Program-made: the position numbers and the translations under genes
Shown here: positions 6,892 through 64,000 of the stretch, piece by piece
Position numbering within the stretch: position 1 is the stretch's first letter
Layout of the letters: each line of letters opens with the position of its first letter
The notes under the pieces: model-generated
Told to the model about the DNA's origin: nothing
Seen by the model: only the letters and a program-made list of their open reading frames with translations
Database searches by the model: none
From: Desertivirga xinjiangensis
GTDB taxonomy: Bacteria; Bacteroidota; Bacteroidia; Sphingobacteriales; Sphingobacteriaceae
DNA length: 64,000 nucleotides
Assembly (NCBI RefSeq): GCF_024436435.1
Contig: NZ_JAFMZP010000010.1
Span: 62,001-126,000 of the forward strand
Reading direction: 5' to 3'

Positions 6892-7443
6892 ATGAGAAAA
6901 AATTTACTCCTTACATCAGTTTTCGGATTACTGTTGTTTACCTTTTCAGCATGCGACAAAGTGAAAGATGCGCTTGAAAAAGATGTTAATATCCCTACAA
7001 CCGTTAATTTCACTATAAATCAGTTGGGTGTTGGAGCAGCCGAAACCATTGGAGAGTTCGAGGTTAAATACAATCTTGATTCGGCAGTTAAGGCAAATGC
7101 ACCTTCCCTAAGCGCTGATAATGTCAAAAGTATTAAATTGAAAAGCTTCAAGATTGAACTGATTGATGAGAATGCAGATAATAATTTCCAAGCCTTTAAA
7201 TCGATATATGCCTCGGTATCTGCACAAGGGCTGGATACTAGAGAAGTAATTCGAATCTCTGATTTTAACCCCGCAAATCCAACCTATTCTTTAACCATTC
7301 CGGTAACTGGCGGTGGTATTGAGCTTAAAGATTATCTGAGCAAAAAGATTAAATATTCCATTAAAGGGGAAACACGTAAAACTTTTACAGGCCCTATTAG
7401 GGCGAGAGCAAAAGCTGAATACGAGTTTACTATCGGTTTATAA
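6892..7443 (+). CDS. Putative lipoprotein, function unknown
   Basis: A 183-residue protein with a lipoprotein signal peptide; the lipobox is TFSAC with Cys at residue 21, followed by DKVKDALEKD. The body is predicted to be beta-rich, with repeated [VI]-x-[FLI] strands and a GGGIELKDYL segment. No catalytic motif is visible. It probably sits in the outer membrane facing the periplasm, like most Bacteroidota lipoproteins without an export signal. It is a single transcription unit: promoter at 6831-6860 and a terminator hairpin at 7457-7494. Confidence 0.75.
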   Translation: MRKNLLLTSVFGLLLFTFSACDKVKDALEKDVNIPTTVNFTINQLGVGAAETIGEFEVKYNLDSAVKANAPSLSADNVKSIKLKSFKIELIDENADNNFQAFKSIYASVSAQGLDTREVIRISDFNPANPTYSLTIPVTGGGIELKDYLSKKIKYSIKGETRKTFTGPIRARAKAEYEFTIGL

Positions 7444-7456
7444 ATAGAAAAATCAC

Positions 7457-7494
7457 AAGGTGGGGTATTTAAATAATACTCCGCCTTATTTTTT
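7457..7494 (+). terminator. Rho-independent terminator after the lipoprotein gene
   Basis: Stem AAGGTGGGGTATT pairs (with G-U wobbles) with AATACTCCGCCTT, followed directly by a run of T residues (7489-7494). It separates the rightward lipoprotein gene from the leftward sugar dehydrogenase gene ending at 7504. Confidence 0.7.
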
Positions 7495-7503
7495 CCTCAG
7501 GAT

Positions 7504-8628
7504 TTATTTTCCAGGCATTATTTTTAATAGCTTCCCCGGTCCTTCTGTAACTACGTAAATAAACCCATCCGGACTTTGCGCAACATGGCGTACTCTGCCA
7601 ACGTTCTCCAACAGTTTTTCCTCGCTTTTGAACTTTGTTCCATCTAAAGTGATGCGCCCTAAATATTTAAAGGAGAGATTTGCAATAAGTAGACTTCCCT
7701 TCCACGATGGATATTTGTCACTTGTTACCAGCGCCATTCCACAAGGCGCTGGAGAAGGCACCCAGTATTTGACCGGGTTTTGTACTCCTTTCATTTCTTT
7801 CTTATCAGATATAATTGAACCATCATATCCGATTCCGTAAGTTACAATGGGCCATCCGTAATTCTTTCCTTTTTCAACAAGGTTCAATTCGTCCCCTCCT
7901 TTTGGCCCGTGCTCAACTGCCCAAAGCCTGTTATTGGCAGCATCGTAGGCCAATCCCTGAGGATTTCTATGTCCATACGACCAGATACTTGCTTTCGCAT
8001 TTGCCTGACCAACAAAAGGATTGTCCTTGGGCACCCTTCCATCGTCTAAAAGGCGGTGGATCTTCCCGTGGTCGTTACTTAAGTTCTGAACCTTTTGGTT
8101 CGTTCCGCGCTCCCCTGCTACTACAAACATATATCCCTCTTTGTCGAAGGCTATACGGCTTCCAAAATGATGAGAAGCAGAAAGCGCCGGCCCGGCTACA
8201 AAAATATCTTGTTTTTCAACCAATTGATTGCCCTGAAGTTTCGCCCGCAATATTGCAGTGGAGTAAGCACCACCCAGCGGCTTTGAGTAAGCAAGATATA
8301 TCCATCCATTTTTGCTATACTGTGGGTGTAGCTGAATGTCCATTAAGCCTCCTTGTCCTCTGGCAGCTATTTTGGGAAGGCCGGTGATCTTCTCGCCTGT
8401 ATATTTGTCATCCTTAAAAATCAGGATCTCTCCGGATCGTTCCGTGACCAACAATCTTCCATCCGGTAGCCAGACCATGCCCCAGGGATTATCGAGTTTA
8501 TCATAAAGTGTTAATGTACTTACAGCCGTGGCTGAATTTACGATCTCTTTATCATTGCTGGCCGAAGAGTTTTGCTTACAAGTCGAAAGTGCAAGTATCG
8601 ACGTAAGCACAATACCTAGTTGAAACAT
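7504..8628 (-). CDS. PQQ-dependent sugar (glucose/sorbosone) dehydrogenase family protein
   Basis: A 374-residue six-bladed beta-propeller protein. Supporting motifs include NPWGMVWLPDGRLLVTER near the N-terminus, GGLMDIQLHPQY, a His-containing SASHHFGSRIAFD, GHRNPQGLAYD and EHGPKGGDELN, the last two being strong signatures of the soluble glucose dehydrogenase/YliI group. The N-terminal segment is a signal peptide with a possible lipid-attachment Cys at residue 17 (ALSTC), so a periplasmic lipoprotein is likely. Family role: oxidation of aldose sugars with PQQ and calcium; many homologues lack known physiological substrates and PQQ genes are not present here. It is followed 13 bases upstream-side by a response regulator gene on the same strand. 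Confidence 0.88.
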   Translation of the reverse strand: MFQLGIVLTSILALSTCKQNSSASNDKEIVNSATAVSTLTLYDKLDNPWGMVWLPDGRLLVTERSGEILIFKDDKYTGEKITGLPKIAARGQGGLMDIQLHPQYSKNGWIYLAYSKPLGGAYSTAILRAKLQGNQLVEKQDIFVAGPALSASHHFGSRIAFDKEGYMFVVAGERGTNQKVQNLSNDHGKIHRLLDDGRVPKDNPFVGQANAKASIWSYGHRNPQGLAYDAANNRLWAVEHGPKGGDELNLVEKGKNYGWPIVTYGIGYDGSIISDKKEMKGVQNPVKYWVPSPAPCGMALVTSDKYPSWKGSLLIANLSFKYLGRITLDGTKFKSEEKLLENVGRVRHVAQSPDGFIYVVTEGPGKLLKIMPGK

Positions 8629-8641
8629 AATTAGAGCTTAT

Positions 8642-9022
8642 TTATTCTGATAGGTTTTCTTTATACGCTTTAAATGCCTTACTTACAGTTTCTTCTAATT
8701 CACTGATATTAAACGGTTTTTGCAAAATGAAATCAGCGCCTGCCTTTTCCGCTAATGCATCAATGTCATTGTTTGCTGTAAAATAGATCACAGGTATTTC
8801 CTGGTGTTCGGGATGACTTTTAATTATCTGGGTAGCCTTAATACCCCCTTCGTCGGGGATCTTATTATCCATAAAAATCACAGAAGGATTAATTGATTCA
8901 ATTTTTTCGATAATGTCATTGCAATCAGGTAAAGTATAAACCTCCCAATCTGCATCTGTTAATACTAGAGCCACTATTTCTGAAATAGCAAGATCATCAT
9001 CACATACTAAAACGCGTTTCAT
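8642..9022 (-). CDS. Single-domain response regulator receiver (CheY-like)
   Basis: A 126-residue protein made only of a receiver domain: acidic cluster CDDD near residue 8, phospho-acceptor Asp in IFMDNKIPDEGG, a Thr/Ser switch in YFTAN, and the conserved Lys in LQKPFN. I start it at 9022 (MKRVLVCDDD); the longer in-frame version from 9079 adds a Tyr/Asn-rich tail not seen in receivers. There is no output domain and no histidine kinase next to it, so it may take phosphate from an unlinked kinase or hybrid sensor. It lies just upstream of the PQQ dehydrogenase gene and is possibly co-transcribed. Confidence 0.88.
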   Translation of the reverse strand: MKRVLVCDDDLAISEIVALVLTDADWEVYTLPDCNDIIEKIESINPSVIFMDNKIPDEGGIKATQIIKSHPEHQEIPVIYFTANNDIDALAEKAGADFILQKPFNISELEETVSKAFKAYKENLSE

Positions 9023-9190
9023 TAGCTGGTTGTTCAGGTAAATATGTAACATATTTATGTACAAGTAGTTTGTACACATATGTTATTTATACAAGTAATT
9101 AGTAGAGAATAAAAGCGGAAAGGGTAAGGATAGAGCGGAAAGCATAAAGGATGAACGACTCCATCCCTTATGCTTCTTATGGTATATAGC

Positions 9191-62700: not shown

Positions 62701-62888
62701 ACAGATAAATATCCGGCAACGGCACCTCCGATGATTTGGAAGTATCGGTCCATTTCAGAACCTCCGTTTTTCATGTTTCTGGAGAAGTTGTTTATATCAT
62801 TCTCCATTTTTCTTATCTGACCATTAAATTGAGACCCATTTATTATGGCATCCCATTCTAACTCGCCGCCTGATATATTTACTCCCAT
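59754..62888 (-). CDS. Phage tail tape measure protein
   Basis: A 1044-residue protein. The N-terminal ~260 residues match the phage tape-measure core (FQAVLTNTLGSEALADSAMSQIQDFAAKTPFSVRTLTDAFVKLANQGF, partly quoted; LKEFGIKAKDAGD). Alternating coiled coils (~340-460, 700-800) and Gly/Ala-rich hydrophobic segments (~600-650, SFDNILSGFNTIGSAIGVVKGIVSLF) follow. It sets tail length and leads DNA out. At roughly 1.5 angstrom per residue the tail would be near 150 nm. Its ATG lies 2 bases after the end of the G/GT-like extension frame. Confidence 0.93.
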   Translation of the reverse strand: MGVNISGGELEWDAIINGSQFNGQIRKMENDINNFSRNMKNGGSEMDRYFQIIGGAVAGYLSVQALTDFSRKVIDITAEFQKFQAVLTNTLGSEALADSAMSQIQDFAAKTPFSVRTLTDAFVKLANQGFVPTGKQMRQLGDLASSTGKDFNQLAEAILDAQTGEFERLKEFGIKAKDAGDKVVFTFKGVATEVDKTSSSIRNYITSLGDAEGVSGSMAAISGTLGGQISNLEDNWDQLLKTIGEGTDGVFSSAITALSKMLDAVTEYVDKANIASKYNLSSSKPNASGLLGGPFSGLMSLLNSNPDQAGFVQELNKGLSEQNNIFLENAKYFRQYQEQYKKLEKERAFALKGVNDPNLRKAIDAEYQKAKKIINDSAVQYVKNKNKKADSNFGTSKNGKTDEERRLERISNAYNKLQSDLNFINLDKKLSLEEIDEQKINAYESLLKSLLDNGIKPTDRAIVDVTDKIFKFNQELNSIEGNKFQIGVDARELEDKAKQSVKEFQDLVKAGEDVEATVGNINKEITKGFLPKVKSAETRFRELGDKAYGVADGLWYWSEALHDVDPLFSKVLGKIGEISNGIGNVSKGLEAMQAAKATEGSFDNILSGFNTIGSAIGVVKGIVSLFDKSEEKRRKAEEQRAYSQDLQIKAIEAQTKAMERQLSVIKDLYGAERLEKYGQSLEEITRKREELQNSLNGKYMLSDDKSDSDVLARFNSGQFNLDEMRKERDQLAKEVENDRKYLDDLKKKGLEYRYSSMDKFQADNRKRNLDVTQYYIDIAESAASLQGKTVEELTQLLDSGRLDEVTRTAVQNLITFEQQYKDTLNAMREEATGIGFNEVVDSIVDMFARGNAAAEDFGKNFEEIMKKSILNSFKRNSLEKELQKFYQDFAAKAESGGGLDQGELGSLKTLYDAIIANSKKQFEELEKATGMDFASESASSSNSLSGAYKSASQESIDLLAGQTGGMRLAQLQTNLILTSQKGILQDQLNIAMAGIRHWQAIEANTLRTANNTDRMQSIESSLKSISEKMDKNSNALAANGKIGG

Positions 62889-62890
62889 TT

Positions 62891-63130
62891 TTATTTACCG
62901 CTTATAAGTCTTCTTATTTCTCTTTCTTCATCTTCTGGCGATACCTCGATAATATCATTTTCTTTTTTGTCAGGTTTATAGGTTGGGATTGTTGCCATAT
63001 ACATTAAGAGCTTATTCCAGCTTAGCTTCCATAGCACATACTCATCGGTCCATCCAAAATATTTGCATACGCTTCCTATTAATCCAAAAGGGCTATTATC
63101 TCCCTTTAATCTGTCGGGCTCACTTTTTTC
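62891..63130 (-). CDS. GT-like extension in the -1 frame (no own start), probable frameshift product
   Basis: A 79-codon open frame, minus strand, from the GAAAAAA at 63124-63130 to the stop at 62891. Its protein is coherent and phage-like: SPFGLIGSVCKYFGWTDEYV, WKLSWNKLLMYM, then an acidic Lys/Glu-rich tail ending RRLISGK. It contains no early ATG, starting only with an internal ATG near the middle. It overlaps the end of the 162-residue chaperone gene and lies in its -1 frame. Its stop is 2 bases before the tape measure ATG. This is the gene order of lambda G, T, H. Fusing at the six A run would give about 234 residues. The heptamer (G AAA AAA) is not the strongest canonical form. Confidence 0.7.
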   Translation of the reverse strand, partial: EKSEPDRLKGDNSPFGLIGSVCKYFGWTDEYVLWKLSWNKLLMYMATIPTYKPDKKENDIIEVSPEDEEREIRRLISGK

Positions 63131-63594
63131 TGACTCAGAATTTCTGCTCCCAGAATCAATATGATAGATTTCATAAAAGCTTGGACATCTATGGTTGATA
63201 GGGCTTTGTCCAGGAGTACCGCTAATGTTTTGTCATCGACCCATCTCAACTCCTCTAAAAGCTCCTTAGAGGGCTCGTTTCGGTCATTTTGAATAGCAAC
63301 TGCAGCAATATAAATGAAGTCATCTGTGTGATCATGAGACCCTTTCATGATAGCAGTCATAATCCCAGATTCTAAAATTGAAGATGGGATATTCAGAGCT
63401 TTACAGGCTATTTTATACCTGTTACCGACCAGAATCGGGCGTAACTCATAAGACATGATTTGCTTCTTTTTTAACCTGAGTTTAACCAAAAGCTTGTCTA
63501 AAAATGTCTTGGGTTCTATAGTGAATTCTAGCCTATCTGATGCGCTATCGGTAAGGATGCCGCTAGCATTAGACAGTACATTTTTCTCTTCCAT
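63106..63594 (-). CDS. Tail assembly chaperone (lambda gpG-like)
   Basis: A 162-residue protein that reads as a soluble helical protein: FTIEPKTFLDKLLVKLRLKKKQ, then ILVGNRYKIACKALNIPSSILES and ELLEELRWVDDKTLAVLLDKALSTIDVQAFMKSIILI (partly quoted). Position directly upstream of the tape measure is that of gpG-type chaperones, and a second, -1 frame follows (see the extension). Near its end are codons Q155-K156-K157 (CAG AAA AAA), the possible slip site. It ends with V-S-P-T-D. Assignment rests on place and on the frameshift pair, not on a sequence family I can name. Confidence 0.65.
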   Translation of the reverse strand: MEEKNVLSNASGILTDSASDRLEFTIEPKTFLDKLLVKLRLKKKQIMSYELRPILVGNRYKIACKALNIPSSILESGIMTAIMKGSHDHTDDFIYIAAVAIQNDRNEPSKELLEELRWVDDKTLAVLLDKALSTIDVQAFMKSIILILGAEILSQKKVSPTD

Positions 63595-63728: not shown

Positions 63729-64000
63729 CTAAGCCGCTACACCGAATACAATATTCCATGGAGCTGTTGCAGCCTTAGTTGGAATTAATACAGTACCGGT
63801 CCAGTTAATTTGGCCTAATCTGGTCTTGTCAAATGTCGCTTCCAGCGCACCTGAAAGCTTCATACGAACAAAGTTGAACTTGATACCAGACTTAGTTTCC
63901 GCCACAACAGACTTCTCTATGCTGGGTACAACTCCATCAACAGGTGCCGACCAGGTTTTATTTTCTCCTGTCCCTGTTACGGTGCCTCCAAACAATAGAA
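63729..64000 (-). CDS. Major tail protein, partial (5' end outside window)
   Basis: The last ~90 residues of a protein whose frame stays open to the right edge; the first start-like codon (TTG, 63995) is therefore not credited. The visible part is beta-strand rich with LSGALEATFDKTRLGQINWTGTVLIPTKAA (partly quoted), typical of the tail-tube fold. It is separated from the chaperone gene by a terminator-like hairpin, as expected for a protein needed in many copies. Tail-tube identity is inferred from place and size. Confidence 0.7.
   Translation of the reverse strand, partial: LLFGGTVTGTGENKTWSAPVDGVVPSIEKSVVAETKSGIKFNFVRMKLSGALEATFDKTRLGQINWTGTVLIPTKAATAPWNIVFGVAA

Follow-up and report, generated by a model that had tools for sequence, protein, structure and literature searches.

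A probable -1 frameshifting G/GT tail-assembly cassette in a Bacteroidota prophage, and conservation of its T_TTT frame junction among related phages

The slip heptamer of phage lambda is GGGAAAG, and -1 frameshifting of the E. coli dnaX type uses an upstream Shine-Dalgarno (SD) sequence. In lambda G/GT and in the tail chaperones of other tailed phages, ribosomes shift by -1 close to the end of the gene that precedes the tape measure gene, which gives rise to a short product and a fused product, an arrangement described as widely conserved among long-tailed phages (PMC5009743). The slip motifs vary, and the classic motif is reported to be absent from most annotated sites (PMC10885494). The locus described here resembles these systems both in the place of the predicted shift and in the predicted pair of products, but differs from lambda in that the slip core is T_TTT, read by tRNA-Phe and preceded by a variable P codon, instead of the lambda heptamer; in that its T domain is that of phrog_11996, a family listed by PHROGs as of unknown function; and in that the stimulators change between lineages. 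No description of a G/GT frameshift in a phage of Bacteroidota was found among the titles and abstract openings of the open-licence PMC papers listed, nor in the portions covered of PMC8008677, PMC10367356 and PMC3711429. The frameshift is ordinary in purpose and apparently undescribed in Bacteroidota.

The window, the whole stretch of 64,000 nucleotides that was analysed, contains a prophage locus in which the G gene lies directly upstream of the tape measure gene (Table 1); the prophage has genes for terminase, portal, head morphogenesis and major head proteins further upstream. The initial annotation had described the G frame as one of 162 residues ending at 63106, had placed a run of six A's on the minus strand, and had noted a -1 frame stopping two bases ahead of the tape measure ATG; all of these were found, the stop at 62893-62891 and the ATG at 62888. 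The -1 frame, which had been described as 79 codons from the A run, is actually open for 113 codons (63232-62891) and overlaps the end of G. The 173-aa protein encoded directly upstream of G is perhaps, by position, the tail tube protein. On the evidence set out below, we consider it highly probable that the locus is the G/GT tail-assembly cassette of a Bacteroidota prophage, with a -1 slip at T_TTT and GT as the minor product.

Table 1. Features of the putative G/GT locus and its surroundings, in window coordinates
Feature	Position	Strand	Basis
G frame, 162 aa, probable tail assembly chaperone	63106..63594	-	ORF call; weak structural match to 2ob9
T frame, slip site to stop	62891..63178	-	whole open frame 63232-62891; phrog_11996 match
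Slip site A_GCT_TTT (TTTT 63178-63175)	63175..63181	-	alignment with relatives
Possible vestigial stem downstream of the heptamer, 5' arm (AAUCUAUC)	63163..63170	-	4 nt after heptamer; place homologous to covarying stem of relatives
Possible 3' arm of the same vestigial downstream stem (GACAGAUU)	63108..63115	-	one-base overlap with G stop codon
A6 run, site of the initial annotation; probably not the slip site	63124..63129	-	letters; relatives; dN/dS
Tape measure protein, 1044 aa	59754..62888	-	phrog_9959, 5062, 1716, 973 (tail length tape measure)
C-terminal part of 173-aa protein directly upstream of G	63729..64000	-	phrog_6767 (function unknown)

The -1 frame of the window matches phrog_11996 (E 1.2e-17) and, at E <= 0.01, 57 phage records (hosts Bacteroides 22, Riemerella 18, Porphyromonas 12, others 5), so it is not a chance open frame; the search against phage sequences that had been suggested for this segment found it conserved. 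In each of the matches listed (40 of the 57, and 24 of 24 in a second search), the feature under the T match is named a hypothetical protein or the record is unannotated. The phrog_11996 profile was matched by T in all 26 diverse family members that were aligned, and a T match is present in 49 of 399 genomes of the host's family, Sphingobacteriaceae, with the window's own counted. The T homology opens with F-Y-x-x-Y, which in the window lies 16 codons upstream of the A6 run. A peptide-pattern search for relatives of the window T found none in viral_contigs or genome_contigs, and the structure model of T is poor (pLDDT 66.5), with no useful match in a structure search. One locus from the host's family (L209, genome G005) encodes a T that shares all of 95 residues with a T of Parapedobacter soli. 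A Cys-rich, zinc-ribbon-like insert with CxxC and GxGC motifs occurs in T soon after the slip site in eight loci (L002, L212, L217, L218, L222, L258, L287 and L291).

Viral contigs, phage records and bacterial genomes supplied the related loci, which were collected into a final set of 238, comprising 76 lineages, defined as having T below 70% identical. In these 238 loci the frames meet at NNT_TTT, with the G frame as the 0-frame. Where loci were located purely by alignment, TTTT is present at the start of the T homology in 190 of 190, and where they were located purely by profile, it is present at the junction in 41 of 41, with no filter on the run in either case; four or five of the 238 (L237, L242, L243, L247, L016) were placed by a script that required TTTT, which leaves the 190 and the 41 unaffected. 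In 237 of the 238 loci the site is preceded by 60 or more open codons of G (the exception, L141, is cut by a contig end), and in all 238 G stops 20-45 codons downstream of it; the G codon TTT for Phe at the site (63177-63175 in the window) is invariant in the 26 aligned G proteins. Two of 192 loci (L004, L016) failed the filter of the alignment-placed set, and 80 of 109 relatives were kept in one collecting step. Loci lacking the F-Y start are under-sampled, because the collection was mostly gathered with T queries starting F-Y. Left out were duplicates (L001, L009, L010, L014, L196-L200, L203, L249-L256, L259), two loci with one-frame T genes and no shift (L004, L232) and a degraded locus (L246). 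Among a later 42 loci the ten new ones were examined, with a 35-codon fragment (L277) left out and an opposite-strand match in L296 taken as chance; these ten, outside the 238, all have TTTT, eight of them passing the script filter, while in the other two (L282, L283) the site is followed by a 14-codon G tail.

The overlap thus contains a conserved -1 slip site of which the heptamer varies between phages. Among the 76 lineages the heptamers are GGATTTT (23), GGGTTTT (10), CCCTTTT (9), AAATTTT (9), GGCTTTT (8), GTCTTTT (5), AACTTTT (4) and eight other kinds; a strict heptamer with three identical X bases is present in 28 lineages, the window not among them. Individual sites include G_GGT_TTT in Versailles and L002, G_GCT_TTT in L003, A_AAT_TTT in RAP44 and C_CCT_TTT in BKO1-TP4. 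A T-frame stop lies within five codons ahead of the site in 16 of 76 lineages, and in L002, the G protein of which is 34-36% identical to that of the window, such a stop directly precedes GGGTTTT, which leaves no room for an earlier shift. The base before the P codon (X1) is the same as the first base of that codon (X2) in 65 of 76 lineages; at other junctions that precede a T-ending codon, taken as background, the two are the same in 773 of 2834 cases (27%; p 1e-25 for 64 of 75 lineages, kinship ignored; by P-codon class 7 of 8, p 7e-4). X1 is a wobble base of G and has no T-frame meaning if the slip is at TTTT, and tandem slipping predicts that X1 equals X2. The conservation of T and that of TTTT together support the proposal of the initial annotation that a -1 programmed frameshift ahead of the tape measure gene makes a G/GT-like fusion.

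Selection on the two frames was measured as dN/dS in four groups of relatives (B, C, V and R), to which the window does not belong and within which pairs are not independent. Past the G stop, the T segment has a dN/dS of 0.02-0.11 in the T frame versus 1.57-3.75 in the other two frames. The T-frame value drops across the T run in all four groups, from 1.39 (B), 11.63 (C), 4.37 (V) and 2.83 (R) at codons -24 to -4 to 0.32 (B), 0.52 (C), 1.00 (V) and 0.49 (R) at codons 0 to +8, with the V value just after the site not below 1. In groups C, V and R it returns to about 1 or above deeper in the overlap, which leaves B as the one group with a clean dual-coding signal; taken across the entire overlap, the T-frame value is 1.80 for V, 0.91 for C, 1.11 for R and 0.46 for B, and group B has 0.53 in the G frame and 1.63 in the third frame.

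In relatives, the sequences around the site contain stimulators that differ by lineage, being either a covarying downstream stem or an upstream hairpin with GGAGG. The 65 nt right after the site fold more strongly than shuffled sequences (mean z -1.76, with 19 of 39 lineages below -2), whereas the effect declines to -0.87 at +60 and is absent both upstream of the site (-0.26) and at +200 (-0.24). A stem opening 2-22 nt after the site is found at p <= 0.05 in 28 of 75 lineages and at 0.01 in 16. The Versailles-like, L012-like, L171-like and Riemerella-like groups and L204, L205 and L209 (host's family) share a stem of approximately 12 pairs beginning 5 nt after the heptamer, with a loop of 28-58 nt; in most cases 0-20 nt separate the end of its 3' arm from the last base of the G stop. 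In 43 sequences, the rows of which are not independent, 87.0% of the cells of this stem are paired versus 24-47% when it is slid, and there are 53 double changes versus 21.5 in shuffles; the number of doubly changed pairs (6 versus 5.2) and of pair types (15 versus 15.2) shows no excess. The B-group (BKO1-TP4-like) loci are without the common stem and have a different, weaker hairpin (alifold -1.1).

Twelve loci in which T starts F-F-R (L223, L224, L231, L237, L242-L245, L247, L248, L282 and L283), the window not being one of them, have a hairpin around GGAGG upstream of the heptamer, within the G codons for (V/I)-Y-(R/G)-R-L-D; the distance to the heptamer is 11 nt from the end of GGAGG and 3 nt from the end of the hairpin. 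These loci resemble E. coli dnaX in the SD sequence upstream of the slip site, but differ from it in that GGAGG is inside a covarying hairpin and in that the hosts are Bacteroidia, the ribosomes of which mostly ignore SD sequences (PMC9976891, PMC8710568). In the 12 loci, which as rows are again not independent, 94.0% of the cells of the hairpin are paired versus 18-43% when it is slid, and there are 7 double changes versus 3.1 in shuffles, confined to two pairs of which one is unpaired in 5 of the 12. Synonymous sites at the hairpin are strongly constrained, with codon identity in 208 of 226 pairs versus 324 of 850 upstream (10 loci). Folding of ten loci with RNAfold mostly also pairs two G's of GGAGG with an inner CC, which L282 lacks. 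SD-like motifs upstream of the site, present in 13 of 76 lineages versus 80 of 1292 background windows, are not a general excess, because 8 of the 13 lineages belong to the GGAGG-hairpin group. As a tentative reading of the whole, to which we would give slightly less than an even chance, a single family of Bacteroidota phages keeps a fixed T_TTT core for tRNA-Phe that tolerates poor re-pairing in the P site, with one stimulator exchanged for another from lineage to lineage: a long stem downstream of the site that closes close to the G stop, a hairpin upstream of it that presents GGAGG to ribosomes that otherwise do not respond to SD sequences, or a T9 run maybe acting via RNA polymerase, the frameshift being lost in another case (L004) for a T gene in one frame.

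Other explanations of how the two frames are expressed were weighed against a ribosomal slip at T_TTT. The initial annotation had placed the slip at the A6 run (G_AAA_AAA, 63130-63124), as the only slippery-looking site in the overlap, which also contains TTTT at 63178-63175 within A_GCT_TTT. The A6 run is in register and ahead of the G stop, and in E. coli slippage on A runs decoded by tRNA-Lys is described (PMC5009743), but T residues with homology to those of relatives are encoded from 16 codons upstream of it, A6 runs occur in the overlap of only 3 of 75 lineages and in three different registers, and selection on the T frame sets in at the T run, ahead of the place of the A6 run in the window; this site is accordingly very unlikely and was rejected. 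Separate synthesis of T, by reinitiation or from an internal start, is hardly more than a theoretical prospect. A possible start lies upstream of the site in 17 of 76 lineages, the window has its first in-frame start 47 codons after the site, and a short T gene is annotated with a start inside the frame in three phage annotations. In 59 of the 76 lineages, however, T is without a start codon upstream of the site; the window, too, has no ATG, GTG or TTG in the T frame from its upstream stop to the slip site, in agreement with the earlier observation that this frame lacks a start of its own near the overlap, and a start at codon 47 would lose the invariant residues F1, Y5, G32 and G42. An independent T start was rejected on these grounds.

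Joining of the frames by slippage of RNA polymerase rather than of the ribosome is suggested by T9 runs at the site in five loci of two unlike kinds (L011, L193, L194 and L195, and L016), a T9 run being long enough in principle for such slippage. A T4 run is short for it, however, and T4 is what is present in the window and in 207 of 233 loci, with a covarying stem 5 nt after the site in T4 lineages, so that polymerase slippage is exceedingly improbable as the explanation for this locus. The possibility that the window copy is decaying, with frameshifting in its relatives and poor or absent frameshifting here, deserves more weight and is nevertheless unlikely. In its favour, about one of three positions would presumably re-pair if the tRNA on the P codon GCT of the window moved to AGC, and by pairing rules we take this P-site re-pairing to be among the poorest of the 76 lineages; moreover, no significant stem opening 2-22 nt after the window site was found (z 0.11, p 0.525). 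These weak signals of the window also tell against the slip at T_TTT, together with an MFE z of -0.94 for the sequence after the site (65 nt, offset 5) and the lack of an SD-like motif upstream of the window heptamer; at the place homologous to the stem of relatives, 7 of 8 positions pair by direct reading, which is not significant. Against decay, the T frame of the window is intact over the 95 codons from site to stop, the terminase, portal, head and tape measure genes are long open frames with family matches, and L287, in which the start of T is similar to that of the window, has G_CTT_TTT. On the same pairing rules, the A-site tRNA-Phe at T_TTT can presumably re-pair fully; given the poor P-site re-pairing, we infer that tandem slipping of two tRNAs is less likely in the window than a slip of tRNA-Phe by itself, either while it is in the A site or once it has been translocated to the P site.

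With the slip at T_TTT, most ribosomes would read G through to its stop at 63106, and a minority would slip back one base with tRNA-Phe on TTT at 63177-63175 (T_TTT within A_GCT_TTT) and continue in the -1 frame from TAT at 63175. The predicted product is a GT fusion of 234 residues, of which 140 would come from G (through Phe) and 94 from T. The total agrees with that of the initial annotation, since the length is independent of where within the overlap the shift takes place, but the predicted junction differs from the 157 + 77 given there. Because by analogy with lambda G would coat the tape measure protein and the T part would recruit tail tube subunits, the slip rate may be expected to set the ratio of G to GT.

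The G protein of the window was compared with sequence and structure collections. No match was found to Pfam or PHROG profiles, nor to phage records at E 1, and sequence matches are present in 4 of 100 genomes, with the window's own counted. Among 26 G members, one matches PF12363 Phage_TAC_12 (E 0.0021) and one the tail chaperone family phrog_183 (E 0.0097), at E values similar to those of the unrelated families CheZ (0.0044) and MORC2 (0.0067). In structural comparison, the AF2 model of G (pLDDT 80.7) gave 2ob9, the tail assembly chaperone of HK97, as its first row (Z 4.5, rmsd 4.8, 97 aligned) and 3klu, YqbN of B. subtilis, as its second (Z 4.1, rmsd 4.9, 102 aligned), both low scores, and neither protein has a sequence family in common with the window G. 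The remaining PDB rows for G rule nothing out. The best Foldseek match in the PDB had E 0.53, and in BFVD a 'Pre-tape measure frameshift protein G' was row 11 (E 0.16), the best row being uncharacterized (E 0.0068). The low structural scores alone prove nothing; the assignment of G as a tail chaperone, which is probable, is carried by its position and by the frameshift.

The analysis suggests what some protein families listed as unknown in PHROGs may do, and that they have a concealed C-terminal half, namely phrog_11996 for T and phrog_12247, 15994 and 14983 for G. The gene tables of Riemerella phage RAP44 and of Bacteroides phages Versailles and BKO1-TP4 show GT as two separate hypothetical genes and make the second one too short. 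The family also offers a large natural collection of variants on a single frameshift signal. These include a set with an SD hairpin that is apparently active in Bacteroidia, in which SD sequences mostly have no part in initiation, and so the use of the anti-Shine-Dalgarno sequence by elongating Bacteroidia ribosomes for -1 shifting becomes a testable question.

In two loci the frameshift has apparently been replaced by a separate long T gene. The G gene of L004 (genome G017) matches phrog_12247 (E 0.00057) and, by hhalign, the G family (E 9.7e-7); it is followed by a separate one-frame gene (1847-2485) with its own start, encoding 213 aa that end in a T domain (hhalign E 9e-9; phrog_11996 E 0.0029), and one frame beyond this lies a tape measure gene (phrog_20660, E 2.9e-11). 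L232 has a similar one-frame T gene (1035-1727; phrog_11996 E 7.9e-5), and no tape measure gene was seen in that locus. The 213-aa protein of L004 had no match among phage records at E 0.01. The N-terminal parts of the two one-frame T proteins are 35% identical over 154 positions; their derivation from a copy of G is unsupported, with profile comparison probabilities of 0.1 and 7.5. In the degraded copy at L246, T is read in the G frame. In Riemerella phage RAP44 (L005, 2941-5151), antirepressor and Ig-domain genes on the opposite strand lie between T and the tape measure gene. The L257 locus encodes (7280-9034) a head morphogenesis protein of 585 aa, for which one PHROG match, best over residues 197-346, is named Bxa ADP-ribosyl transferase, by name only.
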